This document shows positions 28,618 through 46,821 of a stretch of 64,000 nucleotides of DNA, in pieces. The stretch's first letter is position 1, and each line of letters starts with the position of its first letter. Source of the DNA: Amycolatopsis thermophila (lineage in GTDB: Bacteria; Actinomycetota; Actinomycetes; Mycobacteriales; Pseudonocardiaceae); contig NZ_JAUSUT010000001.1 of NCBI RefSeq assembly GCF_030814215.1, positions 4,526,001 through 4,590,000 of the forward strand, written 5' to 3'. The position numbers and the translations under genes are program-made. The notes under the pieces were generated by a model. The model ran no database searches and was not told the origin of the DNA. It worked only from the letters and a program-made list of their open reading frames with translations.

Positions 28618-29238
28618 ATGCGGATCGTCGTGGCGATCACCGGGGCGAGCGGCGCCGTGTACGGGGTGCGGATCCTCGACCTGTTGCGGGGCCGCCCGGA
28701 CGTCGAGGTCCACCTGGTGGTGACGCGCGCCGGGATGATGACGCTGCGGCACGAGTGCGGTCTGACCCCGGCCGCGGTGCGGGACCTGGCCGCGGTGGTG
28801 CACCCGCCCGGCGACATCGGGGCGACCATCGCGTCCGGGTCCTACCCCGTCCACGGGATGCTCGTGGCGCCCTGCTCGGTCAAGACGCTGTCCGCAATCG
28901 CCTACTGCCACGCCGACGACCTGGTCAGCCGGGCCGCCGACGTGTGCCTCAAGGAGGGGCGGCCGCTGCTGCTGATGGTGCGGGAGACGCCGTTGCACCT
29001 GGGGCACCTGCGGGCGATGACCGCGGCCGCCGAAGCCGGCGCGATCATCGCCCCACCGGTGCCCGCCTTCTACGCCGGGCCGTCCTCTGTGGACGAACTG
29101 GTGGACCACACCGCCCGGCGGGCGCTCGCCCGCATCGGCCTTTCCGGCCTCGCACCCGCCGAATGGGCCGGCGAGATCGGCCGGGCGACCGAAGCGGACC
29201 CGGCGGTCGTGGCGCCCGCGCGGCGAACGCTTCGTTGA
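28618..29238 (+). CDS. ubiX: UbiX-like flavin prenyltransferase
   Basis: The 206-aa product is a UbiX/Pad1 flavoprotein that attaches dimethylallyl phosphate to FMN to make prenyl-FMN. Seen: the N-terminal FMN loop VAITGASGAVYGVRIL, VHLVVTRAGMMTL, the region GSYPVHGMLVAPCSVKTLSAIAYCHADDLVSRAADVCLKEGRPLLLMVRETPL, and a C-terminal helical tail. It is needed by the UbiD enzyme at 18456, which lies in the opposite arm of the same locus. GGGGAGAGG lies upstream of the ATG. Confidence 0.95.
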   Translation: MRIVVAITGASGAVYGVRILDLLRGRPDVEVHLVVTRAGMMTLRHECGLTPAAVRDLAAVVHPPGDIGATIASGSYPVHGMLVAPCSVKTLSAIAYCHADDLVSRAADVCLKEGRPLLLMVRETPLHLGHLRAMTAAAEAGAIIAPPVPAFYAGPSSVDELVDHTARRALARIGLSGLAPAEWAGEIGRATEADPAVVAPARRTLR

Positions 29239-33680: not shown

Positions 33681-33719
33681 GTGTCCATGAATGTCCGCCT
33701 AGACAAACGTGAGGACTCG

Positions 33720-34109
33720 ATGACTGTACCGCCCGCTGCTGGCACTCCGCCAGAGAAGGTCCCGCCCCCACGCGTTCGCGTCGTCCTGAACCACACGGAC
33801 GAGAGCCCTCGGCGTCCGCTGCCGGCGCCTTACCGTCCAGTCGGCTCGAACAAGCAGTCCGGTCCTGGGCGCCATCGCCGGCAGCCCGTGCGCGACGGGT
33901 GGTTCTGCCTGGCCGCTCAGGTGTTGAGTGGCTGGTCGACGACCTTGCGGGCCTGTGTCCTGCTGTCGGTCTTCGGGGCGCTGATCGCCGCGATCGTTCT
34001 GATGACCGCTCCGGCCATCGGCGCATCCCTGGGAACCGTTGTGGCAGGCCTCGGCGCGCTGACCTTCTGGACAGCTCAGGCTCGTCGGAGCCCGCAGCCG
34101 CGCCTGTGA
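33720..34109 (+). CDS. Small membrane protein of unknown function (129 aa)
   Basis: The ATG at 33720 has GAGG upstream; an in-frame GTG at 33681 would add 13 residues. The product has a proline- and basic-rich cytoplasmic half (PPAAGTPPEKVPPPRVRVV, PLPAPYRPVGSNK) followed by a hydrophobic segment (RACVLLSVFGALIAAIVLMTAPAIGASLGTVVAGLGALTFW) that would form two membrane helices. I do not recognise the family. It is isolated between the gene-poor stretch and the MreB-like gene. Confidence 0.5.
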   Translation: MTVPPAAGTPPEKVPPPRVRVVLNHTDESPRRPLPAPYRPVGSNKQSGPGRHRRQPVRDGWFCLAAQVLSGWSTTLRACVLLSVFGALIAAIVLMTAPAIGASLGTVVAGLGALTFWTAQARRSPQPRL

Positions 34110-34330: not shown

Positions 34331-35326
34331 ATGGGTGAACTGGGCATCGATCTGGGCAACTCGAACACCGTCGTCTGCACTCCGAACGACGGGCTGGTCT
34401 TCGAAGAACCGTCGGTGATGCTGCTGCGCGACAGCGGCGGACGACGGCCCCGGGTCGCCGCCATCGGGCACGAGGCGCGGGTGATGCTGGGGCGCGCCCC
34501 CGCGTCGTTGACGGCGACGAGACCGTTGCGGGACGGCGTGATCACCGACCTGGACACCGCCCACGAGTTCATCCGGGCGATCCTGCGCAAGGTCGCCCGG
34601 CACCGCTGGCAGCGGTGGCGCACCCGGGCGGTGATCGGTGTCCCGGTGGGCGCGACCGCGCTCGAGCGCCGGGCCCTGCTGGAGGCGGCGGAGGAGGCCG
34701 GGCTGCGCCGGCCGGCGCTGCTGGCGGAACCGATCGCGGGCGCCATCGGGTGCGGGGTCGACCCGCTGGACCGCCGCACCCACCTCGTGGTCGACGTGGG
34801 CGGCGGCACGGCGGAGGTCACCGCGTTCTGCTTCGGCGGTGTCCTCGCGCACCGGTCCTGCCGCGTCGCCGGGGACGAGATGACCCTCGCGGTCTACCAC
34901 CACATCCGCGACGCCCACGGGATCCTCGTCGGTGAGGTGGATGCCGAGGAGATCAAGATCCGGTGCAGCGCGGAGGAGGGGCCGGCGATCGCGGTGTCGG
35001 GGCGGGACGCGGCCACGGGACGGCCGCGGGTCGCTTCGGTCCCCGTCGCCGAGATCGAGGCCGCCGTGCGCCCGGTGACGGACTCGATCATCCGGACGCT
35101 GGCGTCCTGTCTGGACGACCTCCCGCCGCAGAGCGTGGGGGACGTCCTGTCCGAAGGACTGCTGGCCTTCGGCGGCGGCTCCCTGCAACGCGGCTTCCCC
35201 GAGCGGCTCGACGACGCGCTCGGGTTCTCCGTGAAGCCCGCGGAACGGCCGTTGACGTGCGTGGCCGAAGGCGCGGTCGTCGCGTTGCGCAACCGCGCCG
35301 TGCTCGACGCCTTCCGGGGCTGGTGA
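34331..35326 (+). CDS. MreB-like bacterial actin
   Basis: The 331-aa product follows the MreB pattern: phosphate-1 GIDLGNSNTVVC with VFEEPSVMLL, PLRDGVITDLDTAHEFIRAIL, VIGVPVGATALERRAL, AEPIAGAIGCGV, phosphate-2 VVDVGGGTAEV, and the adenosine motif LLAFGGGSL. The protein should polymerise with ATP and guide cell-wall synthesis. The second residue of phosphate-1 varies (GNSNT instead of GTANT), marking it as a divergent paralogue. AGGAG sits 6 nt before the ATG. It converges, with a 4-nt gap, on the SEDS-PBP fusion gene, a natural functional partner. Confidence 0.88.
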   Translation: MGELGIDLGNSNTVVCTPNDGLVFEEPSVMLLRDSGGRRPRVAAIGHEARVMLGRAPASLTATRPLRDGVITDLDTAHEFIRAILRKVARHRWQRWRTRAVIGVPVGATALERRALLEAAEEAGLRRPALLAEPIAGAIGCGVDPLDRRTHLVVDVGGGTAEVTAFCFGGVLAHRSCRVAGDEMTLAVYHHIRDAHGILVGEVDAEEIKIRCSAEEGPAIAVSGRDAATGRPRVASVPVAEIEAAVRPVTDSIIRTLASCLDDLPPQSVGDVLSEGLLAFGGGSLQRGFPERLDDALGFSVKPAERPLTCVAEGAVVALRNRAVLDAFRGW

Positions 35327-35330
35327 CGGG

Positions 35331-38282
35331 TCAGCCGCCGGCGACCTGCTGCACCGGCGGCGTGGCCAGGATGTCCTGCTGGTGGGCGAAGTAGTAGTCC
35401 AGCGCCTGGCGCACCACGGGGCCGGTCCGGGAAGCGCCGTCCCCGTGACCCTGCACCATCGCGGTCACCACGATCGAGGGGGAGTCGAACGGCGCGGCGG
35501 CGGTCATCCAGTCGTCGAGCCCGCTGCCCCCGGCGGACGGGTCCTGGGCCGTGCCGGTCTTCGCGCCCACGGGCACGGGCAACGAGTTCAGCTGCGTCGC
35601 GGTGCCGGAGGTGACCGCGGCGCGCATGCCCTCGCGGACCGGGCCGAGCAGGCCGGCGAACGGTAGCGGGGTGGTCCGCGGTGCCGGCAGGGCGGTGTAG
35701 GTGCCGGACCCGGTCGCCATCCCCAGCCGCGGCGTCACGAGGTTCCCGGTCGCCGCGGCCGCGGTCCACCGGGCGTTCTGCAGCGGGGTCACGGTCAGGT
35801 ACCCCTGGCCGATGCCGAGGATGACGGTCGACCCGCCGTACCAGGTCCCGCCGGCCTGTGTCACCGACTGGGGCGTGCCGAGGTAGCCCGCGCTCTCGCC
35901 GGGCAGGTCGATCCCCGTCGGCTGCCCGACCCCGAACTCGCCGGCGGTGCCCGTCAGCGCGTCCGGTCCGAGTGCGGCGGCGAGCTTGTAGAAGTAGACG
36001 TCGTTGGACCACGCGATGGCCTGCACGAGGTTCTGCGGGGGCAGCACCCGCCAGTTGTTGAACGTGTGCCCGCCGAGGGTGAACGAGCCACCGGTCGGGA
36101 TCACCGCACCGGGGTCCCAGGGGGGAGCCCGCAGGTCCGCAGCGGCGACCACCAGCTTGAAGGTCGACCCGGGCGGCGCGGCGAGCTGGGTGACGTGTTC
36201 CAGCGTGGGCTGTCCCGGTGCGCGGGCCGCCGCCTGCAGCGCGGCGGAGTCCACGGGCGGGCCGTAGGCGTTGTTGTCGAACGAGGGCAGGCTCGCCATG
36301 GCGAGCACGGCGCCGGTGCGCGGATCCATCGCCACCGCACCGCCGACGGCGCCGTGTGGCTCGGTGGCCAGCGCCCCGGCGAGCGTGCTGGTGAGGTACC
36401 GCTGCAACGGCAGGTCCAGCGACAGCCGCAGGTCCGCTCCCGGTACCGGTGCCCGGATCGTGCTCTGGGCGACCGGTTCGCCGACGGGGTCGACCGTGAA
36501 GCAGTCCTGGCCGTCGACGCCGCGCAGGACGGCGTCGTAGGACTGCTCGAGTCCCGCGCGGCCGACGATCGCGGTGGGGGAGAGCCCGGGCCAGCGGCGC
36601 AGTTCGGTGGGCGTGGCGATGCCGGCGAACCCGAGCATCGGGCCGAGCAGCGCGCCCTCGGGGTAGCGGCGGGCCGGCTTCGGCACGAGCACGACGCCGG
36701 GGAGCCCGGCGGCCGCGATCTGCCCCGCGGTCGCGGGCGGCACGTCGGCCAGCGGGGTGGACAGCGTGGTGGCGGGCAGGGTGTCGAGCGTGTGCTGGAC
36801 GGCGTCGGCGGGCTGCCCGGTCAGGGCGGCCAGGCGGTCCACGTCGGCCGGGCGGCCCCGCAGCAGCGCGGGCACGGCGAGCACGGTCTGGGTGTCGACG
36901 CCGGTCGCCAGCGGTGTGCCGTGCCGGTCGGTGATCGTGCCCCGCGGCGCGGGCAGGGTGATGCAGCGGGTCATCTGGGACTGGCCGGCCAGCCGCAGCG
37001 CGGCGCCCTGCGTGTTCTGCAGGTTCCACGCGTAGCCGGCGAAGACCAGCAGGAGGCAGGTCAGCGCCAGCGCGGCGAAACGGCCCAGCCGTGGCCGGGC
37101 GTGCCGCCACGACGGTGCCGACCACAGCCGCCGCCGGGCGCCGTCACGGCGCACGGCGAGCACGATCCCGAGCGCCACCAGGTGCACGAACACCGCGGTG
37201 CCCCCGTAGCTCACGAGCGGGAACGGCACGCCCGCCACCGGCAGCAGGCCGAGGTTGCCCCCCAGCGACACGGCCGCCTCCACACCGATGAGCACGGCGA
37301 GCCCGGCGGCGACCAGACCGCCGGCCCGCTCCCGCGGTACGCGCGCGGCCACCGCGAGCCGCCACACCAGCACCAGCGCGGCCGCCACCGCCGCGGCCGC
37401 GGCCACCAGGCCCCACTGCTCGGCAAGGCTCGCCAGGGCCAGGTCGGTCTCCCGCTCCGGCAGGTACTCCGCGAGCAGCTGGCGCATCGGGTTGCCCGCC
37501 TGACCCAACAGCCCGCCGGAGGCGAGGGCGATGTGGGCCTGGTACACGGCCCAGCCGGTGCCGGAGTTCGCGGGGGTCGCGGCGAGGAACGCCGTGAGGC
37601 GGTCGATCTGGTAGGGCCGGAGCAGCCCGACGGCCAGCGGCGCGATCACCAGGGCCCCGCCGAACAGCGGCACCAGGAAGCGCGCCGGGATGCGGCCGAG
37701 GATCATCATGGTCGCGGTGAGCACGACCAGCAGCGTGGCCGTGCTCAGGTCCGGTTCCAGCACGGTCAGCCCGATCGGGATGGCCGCGAGGACGAGGGAG
37801 AACAGGAACCGCTGCCAGTCCGGGCGGTTCGACCCGGCCACACCGGCCAGCACGATCAGCAGGCCCAGTTTCGCCAGCTCCGAGGGCTGGAAGGTGAATC
37901 CGGACAGGGCGATCCAGCGTTGCGCCCCGTTGGCCTCGGAGCCCACCACGAGCACGGCGGCCAGCGCCACGACGGCCACGCCGTAGCAGGCCCAGCCCAG
38001 CAGGGTGAGCAGCCGCGCCCGGATGCGCCAGAACACCACCAGCCCGGCCACCCCGGCGAGCACGACGACGGCCTGGTGGTCGGCCAGGGGCAGGCCGCCG
38101 ACCGCGTAGAGGTTGAGGATGCCCAGCCCGGCCAGGACGAGCAGCGCGAGGACCGCGGCCAGGTCGAACGCCCCCGCCGGCACCCGGGGCAGGCGCAGCC
38201 GGGGCCAGGGACGGCGCCGGCGCAGGCGATGGCGCCGGGAGCGTCCCGGTCCGTTGGGCCCGCCTCCTTCGAGTGTCAGCAC
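35331..38282 (-). CDS. SEDS (RodA/FtsW) glycosyltransferase fused to a class B PBP
   Basis: One uninterrupted 983-aa frame. Residues ~38-378 are a multi-pass SEDS domain: GSEANGAQRWIALSGFTFQPSELAKLG, LEPDLSTA with the putative catalytic D178, GGLLGQAG and FPLVSYGGTA. After a basic linker, residues ~400-420 give one more helix (RFAALALTCLLLVFAGYAW), then PRGTITDRHGTPLAT (class B PBP pedestal), and a transpeptidase domain: S706-T-F-K709, S759-N-D761 (SxD as in PBP2) and K908-T-G910. RodA and PbpA are normally separate partner proteins that make glycan strands and cross-link them; here both are in one chain. GTG 38282 overlaps the stop of the upstream membrane-protein gene by 7 nt; no frame break is seen between domains. 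Confidence 0.9.
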   Translation of the reverse strand: MLTLEGGGPNGPGRSRRHRLRRRRPWPRLRLPRVPAGAFDLAAVLALLVLAGLGILNLYAVGGLPLADHQAVVVLAGVAGLVVFWRIRARLLTLLGWACYGVAVVALAAVLVVGSEANGAQRWIALSGFTFQPSELAKLGLLIVLAGVAGSNRPDWQRFLFSLVLAAIPIGLTVLEPDLSTATLLVVLTATMMILGRIPARFLVPLFGGALVIAPLAVGLLRPYQIDRLTAFLAATPANSGTGWAVYQAHIALASGGLLGQAGNPMRQLLAEYLPERETDLALASLAEQWGLVAAAAAVAAALVLVWRLAVAARVPRERAGGLVAAGLAVLIGVEAAVSLGGNLGLLPVAGVPFPLVSYGGTAVFVHLVALGIVLAVRRDGARRRLWSAPSWRHARPRLGRFAALALTCLLLVFAGYAWNLQNTQGAALRLAGQSQMTRCITLPAPRGTITDRHGTPLATGVDTQTVLAVPALLRGRPADVDRLAALTGQPADAVQHTLDTLPATTLSTPLADVPPATAGQIAAAGLPGVVLVPKPARRYPEGALLGPMLGFAGIATPTELRRWPGLSPTAIVGRAGLEQSYDAVLRGVDGQDCFTVDPVGEPVAQSTIRAPVPGADLRLSLDLPLQRYLTSTLAGALATEPHGAVGGAVAMDPRTGAVLAMASLPSFDNNAYGPPVDSAALQAAARAPGQPTLEHVTQLAAPPGSTFKLVVAAADLRAPPWDPGAVIPTGGSFTLGGHTFNNWRVLPPQNLVQAIAWSNDVYFYKLAAALGPDALTGTAGEFGVGQPTGIDLPGESAGYLGTPQSVTQAGGTWYGGSTVILGIGQGYLTVTPLQNARWTAAAATGNLVTPRLGMATGSGTYTALPAPRTTPLPFAGLLGPVREGMRAAVTSGTATQLNSLPVPVGAKTGTAQDPSAGGSGLDDWMTAAAPFDSPSIVVTAMVQGHGDGASRTGPVVRQALDYYFAHQQDILATPPVQQVAGG

Positions 38283-39277
38283 GACGGACTCCCCACGATC
38301 AAGGGTGGGCTGCTCGCGCGCCCCGGCGAGCCGGTCACCGCGAACACCGCGACCGTCCGCGCGGCCGGCAGGGGCACTTCGGTGACCACGTTGAGCCGCG
38401 TGTCCTGGGCGGCGGCGGCGAGTTTCCCGCCCGGCGCGGTGGTTTGCGCCCCGGTGCAGCGGTCGACGATCATGACGTCCCAGGCGAGCGTGAGGGCGTC
38501 GTGCGGGGGCGTGAGGTCCACCTGCAACCGGACCTGGCAGGACTGTCCGGGCGCGCAGAGCACGAGCGGGCGGAGGTCGAGGCCGCCCACCGGGGTGGAC
38601 GACGGCGGCGCCGGCGCGGCGACCGGTCGCGGCGGGACGGTGGTCGGCGCGGACGCCTCGGGCGCGGCACGACCGGCGTCGAGCAGAACGCGCAGGTCGT
38701 TGCTGAGCCGGTCGTGCAGCAGCAGCCATTCGAGCAGGACGGCGGCGGCCAGCGCGGCCAGCGCGGCCAGACCGCGCCACAGCGGCCGCAGGCCCGCTCG
38801 CGGGCGGCGGGGCACGGGCACCAGGGGTGCGCGTGCCGGCGGGGTCGCGGCGGGCTCGGGCCGTCGCCCCAGGGCGGCGTTCACGAGGACCGCGACCTCG
38901 GCGGCCACGCGCTCCGGATCGGGCCCGGCCAGCCGGGAAGCCACCTCGGGCGCCGCCGCGCCCGCCGCGATGTCCCGGGCCGCGTCACGCAGGGTACGGC
39001 GAGCCCGTTCGTCGCTTCGGACGTTGTCCGCCAACAAGGTCAGCAGTGCGGCGAGGCCGGAGCGGTCGAGCGGGCCGGGCGGACCGGTGGTCAGCACCTC
39101 GCCGTGGTGGTCGACCAGGACCGATGCCGCCGGCCCGGCGACCGGTGCCCGGCCGAGTGCTGTGACGATTCCGTGGGCGAGGAAGAGCGCCTGCTCGCCC
39201 GTGACATCACCGACGCGCAGCAGCCGCCGCACCGTGAGAGTCCCCGTGGGGTGCGCGATCTCCGCCCGCTGGACCAT
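38276..39277 (-). CDS. One-TM protein coupled to the SEDS-PBP fusion
   Basis: The 333-aa product has a cytoplasmic N-terminal domain (~1-140) with segments LFLAHGIVTALGRA and SVLVDHHGEVLTTGPP that faintly recall the C-lobe of a degenerate protein kinase, a membrane helix at ~168-188 (RGLAALAALAAAVLLEWLLL), a proline/alanine-rich linker and an extracytoplasmic domain with paired cysteines (LVLCAPGQSCQ, DRCTGAQ). It overlaps the SEDS-PBP start by 7 nt, so the two are made together. I do not recognise the family; a pseudokinase-like sensor or scaffold for the wall synthase is a guess. Start ATG with GGAGGTAA upstream. Confidence 0.75.
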   Translation of the reverse strand: MVQRAEIAHPTGTLTVRRLLRVGDVTGEQALFLAHGIVTALGRAPVAGPAASVLVDHHGEVLTTGPPGPLDRSGLAALLTLLADNVRSDERARRTLRDAARDIAAGAAAPEVASRLAGPDPERVAAEVAVLVNAALGRRPEPAATPPARAPLVPVPRRPRAGLRPLWRGLAALAALAAAVLLEWLLLHDRLSNDLRVLLDAGRAAPEASAPTTVPPRPVAAPAPPSSTPVGGLDLRPLVLCAPGQSCQVRLQVDLTPPHDALTLAWDVMIVDRCTGAQTTAPGGKLAAAAQDTRLNVVTEVPLPAARTVAVFAVTGSPGRASSPPLIVGSPSC

Positions 39278-42067: not shown

Positions 42068-42925
42068 CTACCGCGCGCGTTCGAGGACGAAGTCGTACCG
42101 GGCCAGCAGGCCACCGTCGCCCCGCGGCTGCGGGTCGAGGACGAGCTCGGGTTTGGTGGCGCGGGCCACGTCGTCATCGAGCCAGTCGCCGCCTTCGAAG
42201 TACAACTGGGTGGTGATCCGGCGATAACCCGGGGCGCGCACGATCAGGTGCAGGTGCGCCGGCCGCCAGGGGTGCCAGCCCGCCGCCTCGATGAGCTCGC
42301 CGGTCGGACCGTCGGTCGGGATCTGGTACGGGGCCGGCTTGATCGTGCTGATCTCGAACCGGCCCTGTCCGTCGCAGACCACGACCCCGCGCAGGTTCCC
42401 CTCCGGGACGTGCGCGGCGAACCCGCTGTAGTACCCCTCGTCGTCGGCGTGCCAGATGTCCAGCTCGGCTCCCGGGACCGGGTCGCCGTCGAGGTCCCGA
42501 ACCTGACCGGTGAACACGAGCGGAACGCCCTTCTCGCCGGGGCGCATGGGCAGCTGCGTCACCGACGGCAGCTTCGGCCGGCCGGGCAGGTAGTACGGCC
42601 CCAGGATGCTTCCCTTGGTGCCGTTGCGCTCCTCCGATGCGACCTCCTCCACGACGTGCTCGACGAACACGTCCAGCAGCAGCGGCCACTCGCCGCCCTC
42701 GCCGACCTCGATCAGCCACTGCTTGGCGGCCTGGAACTCCGGGTAGGTCACCTTCTTCGCGCGGATGGCGGCGTGTACCCCGTCGAGCACCGCCGACACG
42801 ACATCGCTGGTCCGTTCCGCGGAGACCGCCGGCGTGGCGTGGTCCTCGGTGCGTGCGGAACGGAAGACCTGCGTGGCGGAGGCGCCGGCGCCGGCGGCGG
42901 TCGGCGGGTGTTCGGTGGCGGTCAT
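42068..42925 (-). CDS. Intradiol ring-cleavage dioxygenase (hydroxyquinol/catechol 1,2-type)
   Basis: The 285-aa product is a non-haem Fe(III) intradiol dioxygenase: a helical N-terminal dimerisation part, then GPYYLPGRP with the first tyrosine ligand, LDIWHADDEGYYSG with the second, and PAHLHLIVRAPGY with the two histidines. Length and sequence style match hydroxyquinol/chlorocatechol 1,2-dioxygenases, which open the ring to (hydroxy)cis,cis-muconate or maleylacetate. GGAGGGAG precedes the ATG. It is divergent from the flavin reductase gene, with a pair of 10-bp inverted half-sites in between. Confidence 0.9.
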   Translation of the reverse strand: MTATEHPPTAAGAGASATQVFRSARTEDHATPAVSAERTSDVVSAVLDGVHAAIRAKKVTYPEFQAAKQWLIEVGEGGEWPLLLDVFVEHVVEEVASEERNGTKGSILGPYYLPGRPKLPSVTQLPMRPGEKGVPLVFTGQVRDLDGDPVPGAELDIWHADDEGYYSGFAAHVPEGNLRGVVVCDGQGRFEISTIKPAPYQIPTDGPTGELIEAAGWHPWRPAHLHLIVRAPGYRRITTQLYFEGGDWLDDDVARATKPELVLDPQPRGDGGLLARYDFVLERAR

Positions 42926-42971
42926 CGGATGCTCCCTCCGTGGCGGGTTGTCCGCCGGACAGTCGCACGAC

Positions 42972-43026
42972 CCCGTGAACCCGGCGGAAACGCGCGACGG
43001 GCGGTGCTTTCGGTCCGGTTCACGGG
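42972..43026. promoter_or_regulatory. Perfect 10-bp inverted repeat in a divergent promoter
   Basis: CCCGTGAACC (42972-42981) and GGTTCACGGG (43017-43026) are exact complements, centres 45 nt apart, in the gap between the dioxygenase (minus) and flavin reductase (plus) genes. The arrangement suggests two half-sites for a single regulator serving both directions, perhaps the large BTAD regulator encoded next door. Confidence 0.6.
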
Positions 43027-43078
43027 AATGCCGGATTCTCGTGGGCGACCGGGCAGGGCCGGACGTGAGGAGTGCGTG

Positions 43079-43660
43079 ATGGACAGGACCGAGTTCCGGC
43101 GGGTGGCCGGCCACTTCGCCAGCGGTGTCACGGTGGTGACCGCGCGGCACGACGGTGCCGACTACGGCATCACCCTCAGTGCGATGTCCTCGTTGAGCCT
43201 GGATCCGCCGATGGCGCTCATCTGCGTGAACCGGTCGGTTCCCTCGCACGACGCGATCAAGGCCAGCGGCGTGTTCGTCGCGCACGTGCTGGCCCGGCAC
43301 CAGAAGGGTCTCGCGAGCCAGTTCTCCCGGCCCGCCACCGACAAGTTCTCGGGTGTCGAGTGCACCCGCAGCGCTGCCGGGCCGCTCGTCATCGCCCGGA
43401 CCCTCGCACATTTCGTGTGCCGGGTCGCGCACACCGTTCCCGGCGGCACGCACACCGTGTTCCTGAGCGACGTCCTGTCGGCGGAAACAGCGTCGGGGCT
43501 GGAGCCGTTGATCTACTACCGCGGCGGTTTCGGCCGCCTCACCGAGGAGGCGGACGTCACCGCCCCGCGGGCCTACGTTCCGGCCGAACACGAGGACGAT
43601 CTCGTCGGGGCCGGGGTCACGCCGGCGCCGTTCCGCCTCGGGTCCTTCTACCTCTCCTGA
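43079..43660 (+). CDS. Flavin reductase (HpaC-like)
   Basis: The 193-aa product has the flavin-reductase-like fold: FRRVAGHFASGVTVVTARHDGADYGITLSAMSSLSLDPPMALICVNRS, with the FMN/FAD-binding SxMSSxSxxPP segment, and late GTHTVFLSDVLSAE. It would supply reduced flavin to the HpaB-type monooxygenase at 47553 in the same cluster. Start at ATG 43079. Confidence 0.9.
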   Translation: MDRTEFRRVAGHFASGVTVVTARHDGADYGITLSAMSSLSLDPPMALICVNRSVPSHDAIKASGVFVAHVLARHQKGLASQFSRPATDKFSGVECTRSAAGPLVIARTLAHFVCRVAHTVPGGTHTVFLSDVLSAETASGLEPLIYYRGGFGRLTEEADVTAPRAYVPAEHEDDLVGAGVTPAPFRLGSFYLS

Positions 43661-43667
43661 CGCGCGA

Positions 43668-46600
43668 TCACCGGCGCAGGTCGTCCAGCAGCCTGCGGGT
43701 GCTGGACGCGGGTCTGGTGCCGAGCTGGCCGAGCGCCTGCTCGCAACCGCGGTACGTCGCGATCACCCGGTCGGTGTCACCGAGGGCGTCGGCTACCCGC
43801 ATCTTCAGGCGCCACATCGATTCCCGGAAGGGGTCCTCGGTCAGCACCTCCTCGGCCAGGGTGTTCGCCCGGGAGAAATCGCCCGTCGCGAAGGCCAGCT
43901 CCGCGGCTTCGCACCGGGTGTCGACGCACAGCACCGCCAGCTGTTCCCGCCGGTGCTCGACCCACGGCGACGACAGGTCCGGCAGGTATTCGCCACTGGC
44001 GATGGACAGCGCCGAGGACAAGGTCGCCAAGCGGTCCGCGCCGCGCAGGTCGGCCGCTTGCGAGATCAGACACTGCAGCCGGCCGGAATCGCTGCCCACC
44101 ACGACGTGCTCGCTCAGCCGGATGAGGCCGCCCTCGGCGCGCACGGAATCCTCCGGTAGCACTTCGCGGAGTTTGCGCAGCGCCTGCCTGAGGTAGGCAC
44201 CCGTCGAATCGTCGTGCCGCCCGGCGAAGAGGGCGTCGACGAGTTCCTCCTTCGTGGCTTCGCGCTGACGGCGAGCGGCGAGGTAGGCCAGCAGTTCGTA
44301 GCTCTTCTTGATCCGGGGCCGTACTTCACGCCCGTTGACGTGGATCGCCACCCGGCCGAATTCGGTCAGCCGGATCGTCGGCGCGAGCGGGCCCGCCAAA
44401 GCCACCCCACGGGACATCAGGGCCCGGCCCAGTTCGTGCCAGGGCGAGTCGGCGTCCGGTTCGGCGTCGAGACGCCGCGACAGCACGAGCGGAAAGCTGG
44501 TCAGGGCCTCGAGCAACAGGTGGTTCGAGCCCTGTCGCTCCGCCGCGGCGAGGGCCAGGTCGCTCGCGCGGTCGGATCGTTCTTCGTCGCCGGTGCGCCA
44601 TTCCGCCTCGGCCAGGTAGATCGCCGCGGCGGGGAGCGAGAGGATGCGATGCCCGCGCTGCATGCTCGACACGGCCTCACGCAGGCACTCCGTCGCCGCC
44701 CGGTCGTCCCCGTCGAGCAGCTGGGCCAGGCCCAGCCAGGTCGCGGCCTGCTCGGCCACGAACGCGTAGTCGCGTCCCACCGGGTGGCTGCGCACCCGTT
44801 CCAGCGCCGCCCGGGCGCTGGTGGTGTCCCGGTTGAACCGCAGTTCGAGCGCGGCCTCCTCGACGTAGCTCAGCAGCTCCAGCATCACCGATCCGCTCGC
44901 GCGCAGCCGTTCCCGTCCCTTGAGCAGGGCCCGCCAGGCCTGGTCCGGTTCGCCCAGCCGGCGCAGGAGCTCGACGCTGAACAGCGAGTACAACCACACC
45001 CCTGGGTCGCGCTCGGCGCAGATCGCCCGGTACAGGGTCGCCGCCTCGTCCACGTGACCCATCGCGAGGAGCGCGCCCAGGCGCCAGGATTCCGTCGCCT
45101 TGACGGCCCACGGAAGCGACGGCGGGTCGAGCAGCCGGGGGAAGTTGCCGTGGTAGTAGTGCACGCGCATGGTCAGCGCGTCGAGCGGCCCGCCGCTGAG
45201 CGCGCCACCGGCCCGCGGCTGCGGGACGTCGTCGAGCAGGGTCATGCAGTACCGCATGGCGTCGAGGTCGGCGCCGGCCCGGCCGGCGGCGAGGACGGCG
45301 CGGATGTCCTCGAGCCGTCCCGCGTGCAGATAGCACCAGGCCATCATGGCGGCGAGCTTGCTCGAGGACCCGGCGACCTCGTCGCGGCGGCCCGCCCGGG
45401 CGAGCCGGTCGGCGATCCGGACACCCAGGCGGTAGTTCTCGTCGGAGATGGCCAGCATCAACTCCGCTCCGGTGAGACGGACGTGCTCGTCGTCCCGTAC
45501 CGGTGCCAGCCGGTCCAGCCAGTGTTTCGCGACCGGGAAGTCCGCGCGTTCCATGACGGTGTCGATGACCTGCTCGGCCACGGCGGCCGCCGCGCGGAGC
45601 TCCCCGGCCTGCAGGTACTCCTCGACGGCTTCCTCCAGGTGCTTTTCGCCGGCCAGCAACCGGGCGTGCGCCGCGTGCCGGGCCCGCTGGGTCTCCGCGT
45701 CCAGACGCTCCAGGCGGGCCAGGAGGTATTCGCGGAACCGCGGGTGGCAGCGCAGCGCGAGGCCGTCCCACGCGGCCGGCAAGCGCTTGTGCCGCAGGCG
45801 GTGCATCCGCGCGGCGGCGTCGGTTACGCCGAGCGCCTCCGCCCGGGCCGGCGTGACCTCGTCGAGCAACGCGGTCTCGACCAGGAAGTCCCGTTCCTCC
45901 GCGGACAGCTGGGCGAGGATGTGCGTGGCCAGGTAGCCGTGCAGCGGATCCGCCTCGCCACCGAGGCCGCTGGCGTGATCGGCGGAGCGCCACGCCTCGA
46001 ACAGCACTCCGGTCACCCAGCCGCCGGTCACGGCGACGGCTTGCTCGGGGTCGACGTCGGGGAAGTCGGCGCGCGACAGCGCGACCGCCGCTTCTTCCGC
46101 GGTGAAGGCGAGATCCTGCTCGCCGAGCACCGGGAGCCAGGCGACCCGGCTGATTCCGTCCCGGACGAAAGCCAGTTCCTGACGGCTGATGAGCACGACT
46201 CGCGCGCCGGCGGGCGCGTACTCGAGGAAGGCCTCGACGACGGCCAGCGACGCGGGCACCCTCGCCAGGCATTCCATGTTGTCCAGGACCAGCAGCAACT
46301 CCCGGTCGCCGATCGCTTCGGCCAGCATCCCGGCGACCTCGGTGTGCGCGAGGCCCGCGGCGAGCGCCTTCCTGATCAGTCCCGCAACACTCGGCACGTG
46401 AACCGCGAGCGCGGCCTCGAGGTAGGTGAGCAGCCGCCCGGTCGCGGCCTCCGTCGTGTCCACCGACAACCAGCAGAGGGGCAGGCCGAGCCCGCGTACG
46501 GTCTGGGCGACCGCGGTCGTCTTCCCCGCACCCGCCGTGGCGTACACGCAGACGACACGGTTGTGCCGGATCAGGCGGGTGAGTTGCTCCTCCAGCCGCG

Positions 46601-46736
46601 GACGTGGCACCGCCGAGGCGGGAACCGGTGACGGCATGATCTTGCGGCGGATGATCCGCGAGGTCGCCGGCACAGGACCACCGGCGGCTTCCGGCGGGCG
46701 GGCATCGGGAAGGTCATGAGCCGCCATGGCCACCAT
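43668..46736 (-). CDS. Large AAA-ATPase regulator with C-terminal BTAD domain
   Basis: The 1022-aa product combines a MalT-like NTPase with a transcriptional activation module. N-terminal: VVCVYATAGAGKTTAVAQ (Walker A, about 69-74), LLLVLDNMECL (Walker B). Middle: a long helical-repeat region. C-terminal ~250 residues: an OmpR-like winged helix (IHVNGREVRPRIKKSYELLAYLAARRQREATKEELVDALF) then a bacterial transcriptional activation (BTAD) helical domain. This order is the reverse of AfsR/SARP proteins, which put the DNA-binding part first. Start uncertain: ATG 46736 or 46727. It sits inside the HpaB/dioxygenase cluster and is its likely activator. Confidence 0.85.
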   Translation of the reverse strand: MVAMAAHDLPDARPPEAAGGPVPATSRIIRRKIMPSPVPASAVPRPRLEEQLTRLIRHNRVVCVYATAGAGKTTAVAQTVRGLGLPLCWLSVDTTEAATGRLLTYLEAALAVHVPSVAGLIRKALAAGLAHTEVAGMLAEAIGDRELLLVLDNMECLARVPASLAVVEAFLEYAPAGARVVLISRQELAFVRDGISRVAWLPVLGEQDLAFTAEEAAVALSRADFPDVDPEQAVAVTGGWVTGVLFEAWRSADHASGLGGEADPLHGYLATHILAQLSAEERDFLVETALLDEVTPARAEALGVTDAAARMHRLRHKRLPAAWDGLALRCHPRFREYLLARLERLDAETQRARHAAHARLLAGEKHLEEAVEEYLQAGELRAAAAVAEQVIDTVMERADFPVAKHWLDRLAPVRDDEHVRLTGAELMLAISDENYRLGVRIADRLARAGRRDEVAGSSSKLAAMMAWCYLHAGRLEDIRAVLAAGRAGADLDAMRYCMTLLDDVPQPRAGGALSGGPLDALTMRVHYYHGNFPRLLDPPSLPWAVKATESWRLGALLAMGHVDEAATLYRAICAERDPGVWLYSLFSVELLRRLGEPDQAWRALLKGRERLRASGSVMLELLSYVEEAALELRFNRDTTSARAALERVRSHPVGRDYAFVAEQAATWLGLAQLLDGDDRAATECLREAVSSMQRGHRILSLPAAAIYLAEAEWRTGDEERSDRASDLALAAAERQGSNHLLLEALTSFPLVLSRRLDAEPDADSPWHELGRALMSRGVALAGPLAPTIRLTEFGRVAIHVNGREVRPRIKKSYELLAYLAARRQREATKEELVDALFAGRHDDSTGAYLRQALRKLREVLPEDSVRAEGGLIRLSEHVVVGSDSGRLQCLISQAADLRGADRLATLSSALSIASGEYLPDLSSPWVEHRREQLAVLCVDTRCEAAELAFATGDFSRANTLAEEVLTEDPFRESMWRLKMRVADALGDTDRVIATYRGCEQALGQLGTRPASSTRRLLDDLRR

Positions 46737-46788
46737 CCAACGCTTCGGAACCGGGACTGGGAAGTACACGATCGCGCCTGCCGGGCGG

Positions 46789-46813
46789 CCCGGAGGTCCG
46801 GGACCGCCCGGCA
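46789..46813 (-). terminator. GC-rich hairpin between reductase-like gene and regulator
   Basis: TGCCGGGCGG pairs with CCGCCCGGCA outside, and CCCGG with CCGGG inside, around AGGT with one bulged base. It starts 9 nt after the stop of the gene at 46822 and precedes the regulator gene on the same strand, so it likely ends the hpaB-side transcript. Confidence 0.65.
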
Positions 46814-46821
46814 AGCGTGCG

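Follow-up and report, generated by a model that had tools for sequence, protein, structure and literature searches.

Introduction

In E. coli and T. thermophilus, the Rod complex (elongasome) builds cell wall with a RodA-PBP2 synthase, which combines a SEDS glycosyltransferase with a class B penicillin-binding protein (PBP). The canonical MreBCD form of the complex contains MreC and MreD and keeps RodA and PBP2 as separate chains. MreC is a usual companion of the bacterial actin MreB, while RodZ is built from a cytoplasmic helix-turn-helix domain, a transmembrane (TM) helix and an outer beta-sandwich.

RodA and PBP2 have been joined artificially, and such engineered fusions were used in one cryo-EM and one biochemical study (PMC10449877, PMC6207328). 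The catalytic role of the SEDS aspartate derives from the E. coli variant D262A (PMC6207328). A natural SEDS-PBP fusion ORF has also been mentioned, with reference to the Rhodococcus RHA1 genome paper (PMC10449877); the sections of that source available to us cover the existence of the ORF, and MreB linkage, a third protein and distribution are absent from them. In actinobacteria, growth is described as MreB-independent in the consulted part of a review (PMC3296230), and an excerpt of a research paper gives M. tuberculosis and its relatives as lacking all Rod components except RodA-PBP2 (PMC8262863).

Here we analyse a stretch of 64,000 nucleotides from the soil actinobacterium Amycolatopsis thermophila (NZ_JAUSUT010000001.1, positions 4,526,001 to 4,590,000; hereafter the window), which encodes a SEDS-PBP fusion between an MreB gene and a gene for a 333-aa membrane protein. 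Our literature search found no description of this conserved trio. The published RHA1 ORF very likely belongs to the same family, since R. jostii NBRC 16295 carries the fusion (locus L113).

Results

A RodA-type and a PBP2-type enzyme in one chain

The fusion runs from a RodA-type SEDS glycosyltransferase through a short linker to a class B transpeptidase (Table 1). An earlier, sequence-only reading claimed an unbroken 983-aa frame that overlaps the 333-aa gene by 7 nt and ends 4 nt from mreB, and all of this is borne out; the same reading rightly had fusion and mreB converging, tail to tail, and wrongly called mreB divergent. Separately sequenced relatives at 73-74% identity keep the same frame unbroken. 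Instead of the separate chains of the canonical complex, a single ORF holds both halves at 78 of 80 loci, which are the best-scoring ones among 98 related stretches; the exceptions are one cut by a contig end (L134) and one with broken frames (L138). A further relative, G088, matches over residues 88-969 and was set aside because an internal stop divides it into two adjoining genes.

Table 1. Features of the trio, in window coordinates.
Feature	Position	Strand	Basis or remark
MreB (331 aa), tail to tail with the fusion	34331-35326	+	PF06723, 281 bits
SEDS-PBP fusion CDS, 983 aa	35331-38282	-	GTG start, no internal stop
Class B transpeptidase domain, residues 647-961	35400-36344	-	PF00905 (Transpeptidase), E 1e-49
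PBP pedestal/dimerisation domain, residues 443-606	36465-36956	-	PF03717 (PBP_dimer), E 1e-23
PBP-half TM helix, about residues 399-420	37023-37088	-	hydropathy; model helix 398-436
Basic linker, residues 380-398	37089-37145	-	surrounding consensus RRDGarRrLW...RPRl; model pLDDT about 65
RodA-type SEDS glycosyltransferase domain, residues 41-379	37146-38162	-	PF01098 (FTSW_RODA_SPOVE), E 9e-69
Codon of catalytic D280	37443-37445	-	alignment with 6pl5_A / 6pl6_A
333-aa protein, one predicted TM helix	38276-39277	-	upstream of the fusion, 7-nt overlap
333-aa protein: beta-sandwich (residues 230-333)	38279-38590	-	model pLDDT about 97
333-aa protein: TM helix (residues 169-187)	38717-38773	-	hydropathy; model helix 165-201
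333-aa protein: decayed kinase C-lobe fragment (residues 11-67), from helix alpha-E via the catalytic loop to beta8	39077-39247	-	hhalign

Alignments comprised the window proteins with 69 fusions, 74 MreBs and 54 third proteins from the 80 loci, after length and HMM-coverage filters. Two further removals were made by hand: L138 (broken frames) from the alignments of the third protein and of MreB, and L087 (contig end) from that of the fusions.

Over its 10-TM domain the SEDS half scores 232.6 bits on PF01098 (cut-off 26.4), and its closest solved structures are RodA 6pl5_A (2e-39) and MrdB 8tj3_B (3e-35). The sequence-only reading had placed the catalytic aspartate at D178 of LEPDLSTA. This assignment is wrong: position 178 is asparagine in 5 of 70 fusion sequences, and the catalytic residue is D280 (YLPERETDLA), which is aspartate in all 70. 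Aligned to T. thermophilus RodA, D280 falls on the residue that reads Asp in 6pl5_A and Ala in 6pl6_A, and by this alignment provides the catalytic aspartate of the large extracytoplasmic loop; we take it to be equivalent by numbering to E. coli D262.

The PBP half has the pedestal and transpeptidase domains of a class B PBP, both above their Pfam cut-offs, and the SxxK, SxN and KTG motifs reported earlier are indeed intact (S706TFK709, S759ND, K908TG). S706, K709, S759, K908 and G910 are invariant, so that six catalytic residues of the synthase, D280 included, show no variation among the 70 sequences. Neighbouring motif positions vary: at 760, 51 sequences have N and 19 have D (the window protein reads SND); at 761, 50 have D and 20 have N; and at 909, 63 have T and 7 have S. 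Cysteines C440 and C594 go together: 60 sequences have both, 10 have neither and none has just one.

The linker would be cytoplasmic by the known topology of RodA and PBP2. Its region (residues 377-398) has a mean column entropy of 1.25 bits across the 70 sequences, against 1.31 for the SEDS domain. An AlphaFold2 model of the fusion (pLDDT 89.9, pTM 0.78), a check suggested by the earlier reading, predicts a PBP2-like fold that matches PBP2 structures, among them PBP2-MreC and RodA-PBP2 complexes.

Compared with the RodA-PBP2 synthase, the fusion has the same two domains and catalytic residues, in one chain rather than two, and its halves give higher scores against RodA/PBP2 than against FtsW/FtsI. 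They do not reach the NCBIfam equivalog thresholds of RodA (TIGR02210, 247.0 bits against 336.7) and PBP2 (TIGR03423, 373.3 against 455).

The MreB neighbour

The convergent gene encodes an MreB that scores 281.2 bits on PF06723 over residues 3-322 (cut-off 27) and matches T. maritima MreB (1jce) along residues 3-327 with E 2e-64; on TIGR00904 it reaches 268.4 bits, below the cut-off of 365.75. It retains the ATP-site residues E133 and D155, which we presume to be catalytic. Among 75 aligned module MreBs, E133 is present in 58 and D155 in 66. In 24 of them a putative ATPase residue is gone, and filament dynamics may therefore be unimportant there; canonical MreBs have both equivalents in six of six cases. 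A small ORF ahead of mreB (33681-34109) was rejected as a member of the set, as tblastn gave no match at E<=1e-3 in 17 loci.

A third protein with an apparent kinase remnant

The 333-aa protein resembles RodZ in its layout of a cytoplasmic domain, a TM helix and a beta-sandwich, the last of which would be extracytoplasmic provided that the N-terminus faces the cytoplasm. It differs from RodZ and MreC in lacking a Pfam match to either at E<=1 in any of 55 members, in its apparently kinase-derived cytoplasmic part, and in four beta-sandwich cysteines that are invariant in 55/55 sequences. Without Pfam support, we did not retain it as an ordinary member of either family. The 50 Foldseek matches listed of 1957 are generic beta-sandwiches and unrelated proteins, with no MreC or RodZ.

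With PknB/PkaI-type receptor Ser/Thr kinases the protein shares the order of kinase-homologous cytoplasmic part, TM helix and outer domain; the difference is that its profile match covers a C-lobe fragment only. Alignment of this fragment by hhalign to a profile of six kinase sequences from two genomes, which includes the same gene more than once, gave E 6e-5 and probability 65, against E 0.19 and probability 0.3 for the reversed control. The window protein itself has no PF00069 match. Kinase models match 2 of the 55 members, L128 below the cut-off and L136 above that of PF07714; the latter, a longer relative, in its longer reading also matches PF00069 (E 3e-10, 40.3 bits against a cut-off of 31.7) with altered HRD and DFG motifs. 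As an HRD-type or DFG motif occurs in none of 74 homologous third-protein ORFs, kinase activity is not expected.

The three genes travel together

The search for single-chain fusions and their neighbours that the sequence-only reading had called for was run on 84,980 species genomes and picked out loci through their PBP motifs, independently of MreB. The 80 best of the 98 stretches it gave are fusion loci of Pseudonocardiaceae, Geodermatophilaceae, Rhodococcus and Dormibacterota. With first HMMs built on six loci, five of which recur among the 80, MreB was found in 75/80 and the third gene in 71/80. In the 59 loci that have at least 2.5 kb on both flanks of the fusion ORF, the third gene is present in 58 and the full trio in 57, as counted with HMMs trained on these same families and over loci that are not independent, many being from congeners. 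L092 lacks the third gene, and L104 has no MreB within 6 kb. The trio appears in four gene orders among the 80 loci, and the earlier view of the three genes as a unit is supported; from the protein families, its role may lie in morphogenesis. A fourth conserved gene was rejected: no neighbour cluster extends beyond 11 of the 80 loci, the widest may be an antisense ORF, and the others are mostly confined to one lineage.

Presence is patchy. Within the genus, 3 of 19 genomes have the fusion; a sample of 121 genomes from the order likewise contains 3 carriers, the source genome being one of them. Among 60 genomes of the same family, MreB (E<=1e-30) is found in exactly the six fusion carriers and in 0 of 54 fusion-free genomes, a coincidence with a chance of 1/C(60,6)=2e-8, kinship not corrected for. 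Three Rhodococcus plasmids carry the fusion without MreB in 7 kb on each side, and only one of them has a third-gene remnant.

Distance matrices of the trio correlate at 0.58-0.94 over 65 sets (shuffle maximum 0.19), which partly mirrors shared ancestry. In trees built on chosen subsets, the fusion SEDS (22 rows), the fusion PBP (15) and the module MreB (27) are each separated from the canonical proteins by a supported branch, the SEDS half being set apart from pkn-type RodA, FtsW and mre-type RodA by a 100/100 branch.

An additional synthase in genomes without detectable MreC

The source genome encodes two further SEDS proteins, each near a PBP: FtsW at 6.43 Mb, and a RodA-type SEDS at 2.18 Mb beside a PBP and kinase-like ORFs. 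Six further PF00905 places were found. Given these separate SEDS/PBP pairs, the fusion is an extra synthase distinct from the housekeeping rodA-pbpA, as first proposed, and we rejected it as the only rodA/pbpA copy, an outcome that would have refuted the sequence-only reading.

Neither MreC (PF04085) nor MreD (PF04093) has a match in the source genome, a further difference from the canonical Rod complex. MreC was found in none of 32 fusion genomes (8 relatives and 24 genomes of the 80 loci), though a divergent MreC could escape detection, and in three of three canonical control genomes. An MreB match without a PF04085 match is not unique to this family, as the Thermotoga maritima control shows the same.

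Canonical mreB ... pbp2-rodA clusters of the order (L051, L052, L053, L055, L057, L058) likewise place MreB beside RodA and PBP2. They differ in that pbp2 and rodA are separate genes, with PBP2 preceding RodA, the reverse of the fusion; in having MreC in the three genomes checked; and in the separate branches of their MreB, RodA and PBP2.

Discussion

The explanation we favour, at a probability of roughly 0.6, is that the trio is an MreC-free, MreB-linked single-chain wall synthase, with a pseudokinase-derived partner that would take the place of RodZ or MreC. In its favour are the invariant catalytic residues, the recurrence of the trio through several gene orders with no other constant neighbour, the joint occurrence of MreB and fusion, the missing MreC, the separate branches, the correlated distances and the PBP2-like predicted fold. 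Counting against it are the plasmid copies with no MreB nearby, loci L104 and L092, the MreBs short of a putative catalytic residue, the Foldseek listing without MreC or RodZ, and the Thermotoga maritima control with an MreB but no MreC match. Having both activities in one chain implies a fixed 1:1 ratio of polymerase to crosslinker. Mechanistically, MreB filaments on the inner membrane face would position the synthase, and the third protein would connect the inside with the outside of the cell. Its decayed kinase lobe, in the cytoplasm, may contact MreB and/or the linker, in the place of RodZ, while its outer beta-sandwich, probably stabilised by disulfides, may contact the PBP pedestal and switch on polymerisation, in the place of MreC. 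The fusion would act alongside the polar RodA/PbpA machinery, not replace it, probably at a particular stage of growth or of the resting cell.

A rival hypothesis, possible at clearly less than even odds, makes the trio a wall module of spores or resting cells. It would correspond to the mre spore-wall complex of Streptomyces and serve exclusively during sporulation, fragmentation or a rod-coccus cycle. Carriers such as Rhodococcus, which to our knowledge form no Streptomyces-type spores, speak against it. In its favour, the sections seen of two sources report that Streptomyces MreB serves sporulation (PMC3296230) and that a Ser/Thr kinase of the Streptomyces complex phosphorylates MreC and PBP2 (PMC4416010), a parallel to the kinase-derived partner. 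The spore or resting-cell reading is a matter of timing and is compatible with an MreB-linked, MreC-free synthase.

Rather unlikely, in our view, is an autonomous accessory enzyme, in which the fusion alone would be a spare or stress synthase (for beta-lactams or other wall stress, for example) merely tuned by MreB and the third protein. The plasmid copies, the patchy presence and the retention of separate SEDS/PBP pairs would fit such an enzyme. However, the trio persists through several gene orders in nearly all testable loci, the 54 fusion-free genomes of the family show no MreB at E<=1e-30, and the plasmid fusions could draw on chromosomal partners.

That the fusion is simply the lineage's housekeeping rodA/pbpA, merely fused, is very improbable: its SEDS-then-PBP order equals that of the genome's own pair at 2.18 Mb, but the other SEDS proteins and PF00905 places and the 100/100 branch led us to reject it. 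An assembly or frameshift artefact fusing two genes, in favour of which nothing was found, is ruled out in practice by the unbroken frame of separately sequenced relatives and the single ORF of 78/80 loci, besides the conserved linker and the 102 invariant and 124 nearly invariant of 983 columns in 70 sequences, leaving it a virtually nil probability.

Going beyond the MreB-linked, MreC-free synthase, we suggest tentatively, and with the odds against it, that the trio may be a second kind of MreB-guided, MreC-free machine, in which the synthase is covalent and former regulators have decayed to scaffolds. This reading draws on the HRD/DFG motifs missing from all 74 third proteins and on the putative ATP-hydrolysis residue lost in 24 of 75 MreBs. 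If true, non-hydrolysing actin filaments would organise wall synthesis in some carriers, contrary to the E. coli/Bacillus model.

In Rhodococcus and Pseudonocardiaceae, MreB has been kept beside a wall synthase, in checked genomes without detectable MreC, despite the MreB-independent growth described for actinobacteria (PMC3296230) and the reduced Rod complex described for M. tuberculosis and its relatives (PMC8262863). A large natural fusion family with a conserved linker could yield stable, stoichiometric complexes of the RodA-PBP2 type. The trio also offers a test of what in the work of MreC and RodZ is indispensable, and of whether ATP hydrolysis is a requirement for MreB.

A single-chain synthase separate from the housekeeping genes

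The coordinates reported by the sequence-only reading for the SEDS–PBP fusion and its neighbours are correct; the MreB gene, called divergent there, is in fact convergent with the fusion. In comparisons with NCBIfam profiles the SEDS half reached 247 bits for TIGR02210 against 204 for TIGR02614, and the PBP half 373 bits for TIGR03423. Both halves score below the equivalog cut-offs and, judged by sequence, are nearer to the elongasome proteins RodA and PBP2 than to FtsW and FtsI. The AlphaFold2 model of the fusion (pLDDT 89.9, pTM 0.78) had PBP2 structures as its top Foldseek matches, including a PBP2–MreC complex and the RodA–PBP2 complex of T. thermophilus.

The catalytic aspartate of the SEDS half, previously placed at D178, is instead D280, which aligns with the Asp of T. 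thermophilus RodA (6pl5_A) that is Ala in 6pl6_A. D280, S706, K709, S759, K908 and G910 are invariant in 70/70 sequences. The linker (residues 377–398) is conserved to the same degree as the SEDS domain (entropy 1.25 versus 1.31 bits), beyond the needs of a passive tether, which makes it an obvious candidate for a cytoplasmic contact. The pedestal cysteines C440 and C594 are both present in 60 sequences, both absent in 10 and mixed in none, the ten loci without the pair belonging to the Dormibacterota-type group; this joint retention or loss suggests a disulfide.

The genome itself (7.3 Mb, one contig, 99.7% complete) encodes three SEDS proteins and has seven PF00905 places, the fusion included in both counts. 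One SEDS protein exceeds the NCBIfam FtsW cut-off and lies about 6 kb from a PBP, at 6.43–6.44 Mb. Another, at 2.18 Mb, likewise has a better score for FtsW than for RodA; it was taken as the actinobacterial RodA/PbpA by genomic position, because a PBP and kinase-like ORFs adjoin it. With these two further SEDS proteins and their PBPs, the earlier proposal that the fusion is distinct from the housekeeping rodA/pbpA stands. The only clear MreB is that of the window, a second PF06723 match at 2.53 Mb reaching 60.6 bits, and neither MreC nor MreD was found in this genome.

Features of the window and loci of the fusion family
Feature	Position	Strand	Description
Fusion CDS	35331–38282	(-)	GTG start, 983 codons, stop-free
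SEDS domain	residues 41–379		first in the fusion, followed by linker and membrane helix
PBP pedestal	residues 443–606		after the membrane helix
Transpeptidase	residues 647–961		last in the fusion
MreB gene	34331–35326	(+)	downstream of the fusion, 4-nt gap, other strand
Third gene	upstream of the fusion, 7-nt overlap		333 aa; TM helix, then seven-stranded sandwich (model pLDDT ~97 for the sandwich)
Small ORF before mreB	33681–34109		hydrophobic C-terminal half; weak SLATT_1 similarity (E 0.34); no tblastn match in 17 loci
ORF	43668–46814		1048 aa; translation resembles a large ATP-binding transcriptional regulator
ORF	28618–29238		presumably flavin prenyltransferase-like, from its translation
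ORF	42068–43591		presumably ring-cleaving dioxygenase-like, from its translation
MreB E133 lost			L063, L066, L072–L074, L078, L079, L081, L085, L088, L090, L093, L094, L096, L129, L130, L133
MreB D155 lost			L100, L102, L103, L108, L109, L111, L114, L129, L133
Plasmid fusions			L154, L155, L156 (Rhodococcus NZ_CP046575, NZ_CP070615, NZ_CP021356)

A conserved trio of genes

Of 100 relatives, 6 have a full-length fusion, as do 3 of the 19 genomes in the genus and 3 of 121 sampled genomes of the order, the window's own genome counted each time. In a census of 84,980 species genomes, two conserved PBP peptides used as queries picked out 98 related stretches, and the best 80 of the 98 were kept; these come from Amycolatopsis, Pseudonocardia, Actinomycetospora, Haloechinothrix, Actinophytocola, Geodermatophilaceae, Rhodococcus/Prescottella, Skermania and Dormibacterota, and from MAGs with other labels, such as Chloroflexi or Bacillota.

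HMMs built from six loci detected MreB in 75 of the 80 loci and the third gene in 71; with wider HMMs the counts were 75 and 74. Flanks of 2.5 kb or more on each side are available for 59 loci, which are non-independent since many are congeners; of these, MreB is present in 58, the third gene in 58 and both in 57, the exceptions being L092 (third gene absent) and L104 (MreB absent). With the third gene denoted P, the fusion F and mreB M, complete trios are ordered P>F>M< (47 loci), F>M<P> (9), M>P>F> (6) or P>F>M> (4), and 14 loci are incomplete. That the genes stay joined across rearrangements argues that their products are likely functional partners. No further conserved neighbour was found, other clusters spanning at most 11 of the 80 loci. 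Distance matrices of the trio correlate at 0.58 to 0.94, to which shared species history may contribute.

Among 72,556 plasmid records, three large Rhodococcus plasmids have a fusion gene that looks intact but lack MreB within 7 kb on either side; one of them retains a remnant of the third gene. The fusion can thus be retained without local partners, which the chromosome might supply.

Two local irregularities were observed. In six Actinomycetospora loci (L083, L088, L090, L094, L096, L130) the order changes: all three genes lie on one strand, mreB first, the third gene next and the fusion last. The third protein of five of these loci aligns to the first profile only from position ~180 onward, its N-terminal region being either lost or divergent. 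In the complete genome of Prescottella defluvii CP121458 (L138, 5833–9883) the fusion and MreB frames are broken, through either sequencing error or decay; in L133, also from P. defluvii, each matches as one ORF.

MreB without detectable MreC

Across 60 genomes of the same family, those with MreB at E<=1e-30 are precisely the six fusion carriers, against 0 of the 54 others. Three of the carriers belong to one genus and the other three to a further genus each, which leaves fewer than six underlying events. In the remaining 13 MreB genomes among the 100 relatives, MreB scores more strongly and a full-length fusion is absent.

MreC was found in none of 32 fusion genomes (eight relatives and 24 genomes of the 80 loci, of which these 24 may be incomplete) and in 3/3 canonical controls. 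Eight named controls have MreB at E<=1e-30; MreC was detected in seven and was absent in Thermotoga maritima, which means that either some MreC proteins escape the model or MreB also exists elsewhere without MreC.

Residues E133 and D155 of MreB, which from MreB work we take to be those that hydrolyse ATP, are lost in 17/75 and 9/75 members, respectively. In all, one or both of these putative catalytic residues are missing in 24/75 module MreBs, whereas the six synthase residues are constant. On inspection of the alignment, the losses fall mainly in Actinomycetospora, Geodermatophilaceae and Rhodococcus/Prescottella. The window's MreB retains both residues, as do 6/6 canonical MreBs.

The third protein

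The third protein of the window has no Pfam match above cut-off. Its N-terminus can be aligned to Ser/Thr kinases across helix alpha-E, the catalytic loop and beta8: hhalign gave E 6e-5 and probability 65 when the two most kinase-like members were excluded, against E 0.19 and probability 0.3 for the reversed control. When solved structures were searched with a profile that did include those two members, PAK4 and PknE came up at E ~1e-4 to 1e-3, the top match, 8cws_A, covering another stretch. The relative at L136 reads as longer and kinase-like (PF00069, E 3e-10), having HGA for HRD and DAG for DFG, and an HRD-type or DFG motif is found in 0/74 homologous ORFs.

Four cysteines of the sandwich are invariant in 55/55 members. 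By crude hydropathy 30 of the 55 have one hydrophobic stretch and 25 have two or three, the extra one lying mostly inside the C-terminal sandwich; a single TM helix is therefore firm for the window's protein and likely for the family. The domain arrangement of RodZ is similar, but no Pfam match links the two.

Relation to the elongasome

In phylogenetic trees a 100/100 branch separates the fusion SEDS domains (22 rows) from 14 mre-type RodAs (13 with a PF06723 gene within ~6 kb), two pkn-type RodAs and the FtsW group. The fusion PBPs (15 rows, quick tree) separate likewise from canonical ones, and 27 module MreBs from six canonical MreBs. A quick fusion tree of 73 rows has mostly coherent family-level groups, with two changes each for Pseudonocardiaceae and Nocardiaceae.

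According to the cited papers, engineered RodA–PBP2 fusions are active and E. coli RodA D262A blocks polymerisation (PMC6207328); a review presents actinobacterial growth as MreB-independent, Streptomyces using MreB for sporulation (PMC3296230); M. tuberculosis and its relatives have no Rod component other than RodA–PBP2 (PMC8262863); the mre cluster is absent from most simple actinobacteria (PMC4255298); and a Streptomyces Ser/Thr kinase phosphorylates MreC and PBP2 (PMC4416010).

The SEDS–PBP fusion is already known as an example. Among the open-licence papers listed, no title concerned the set of MreB, fusion and third gene, and as far as searched the module, the kinase ancestry of the partner and the partial loss of putative MreB ATPase residues are undescribed. 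Taken together, the trio is a real, conserved module with an MreB-linked, single-chain synthase, free of MreC in the genomes checked, and represents a variant form of the elongasome.
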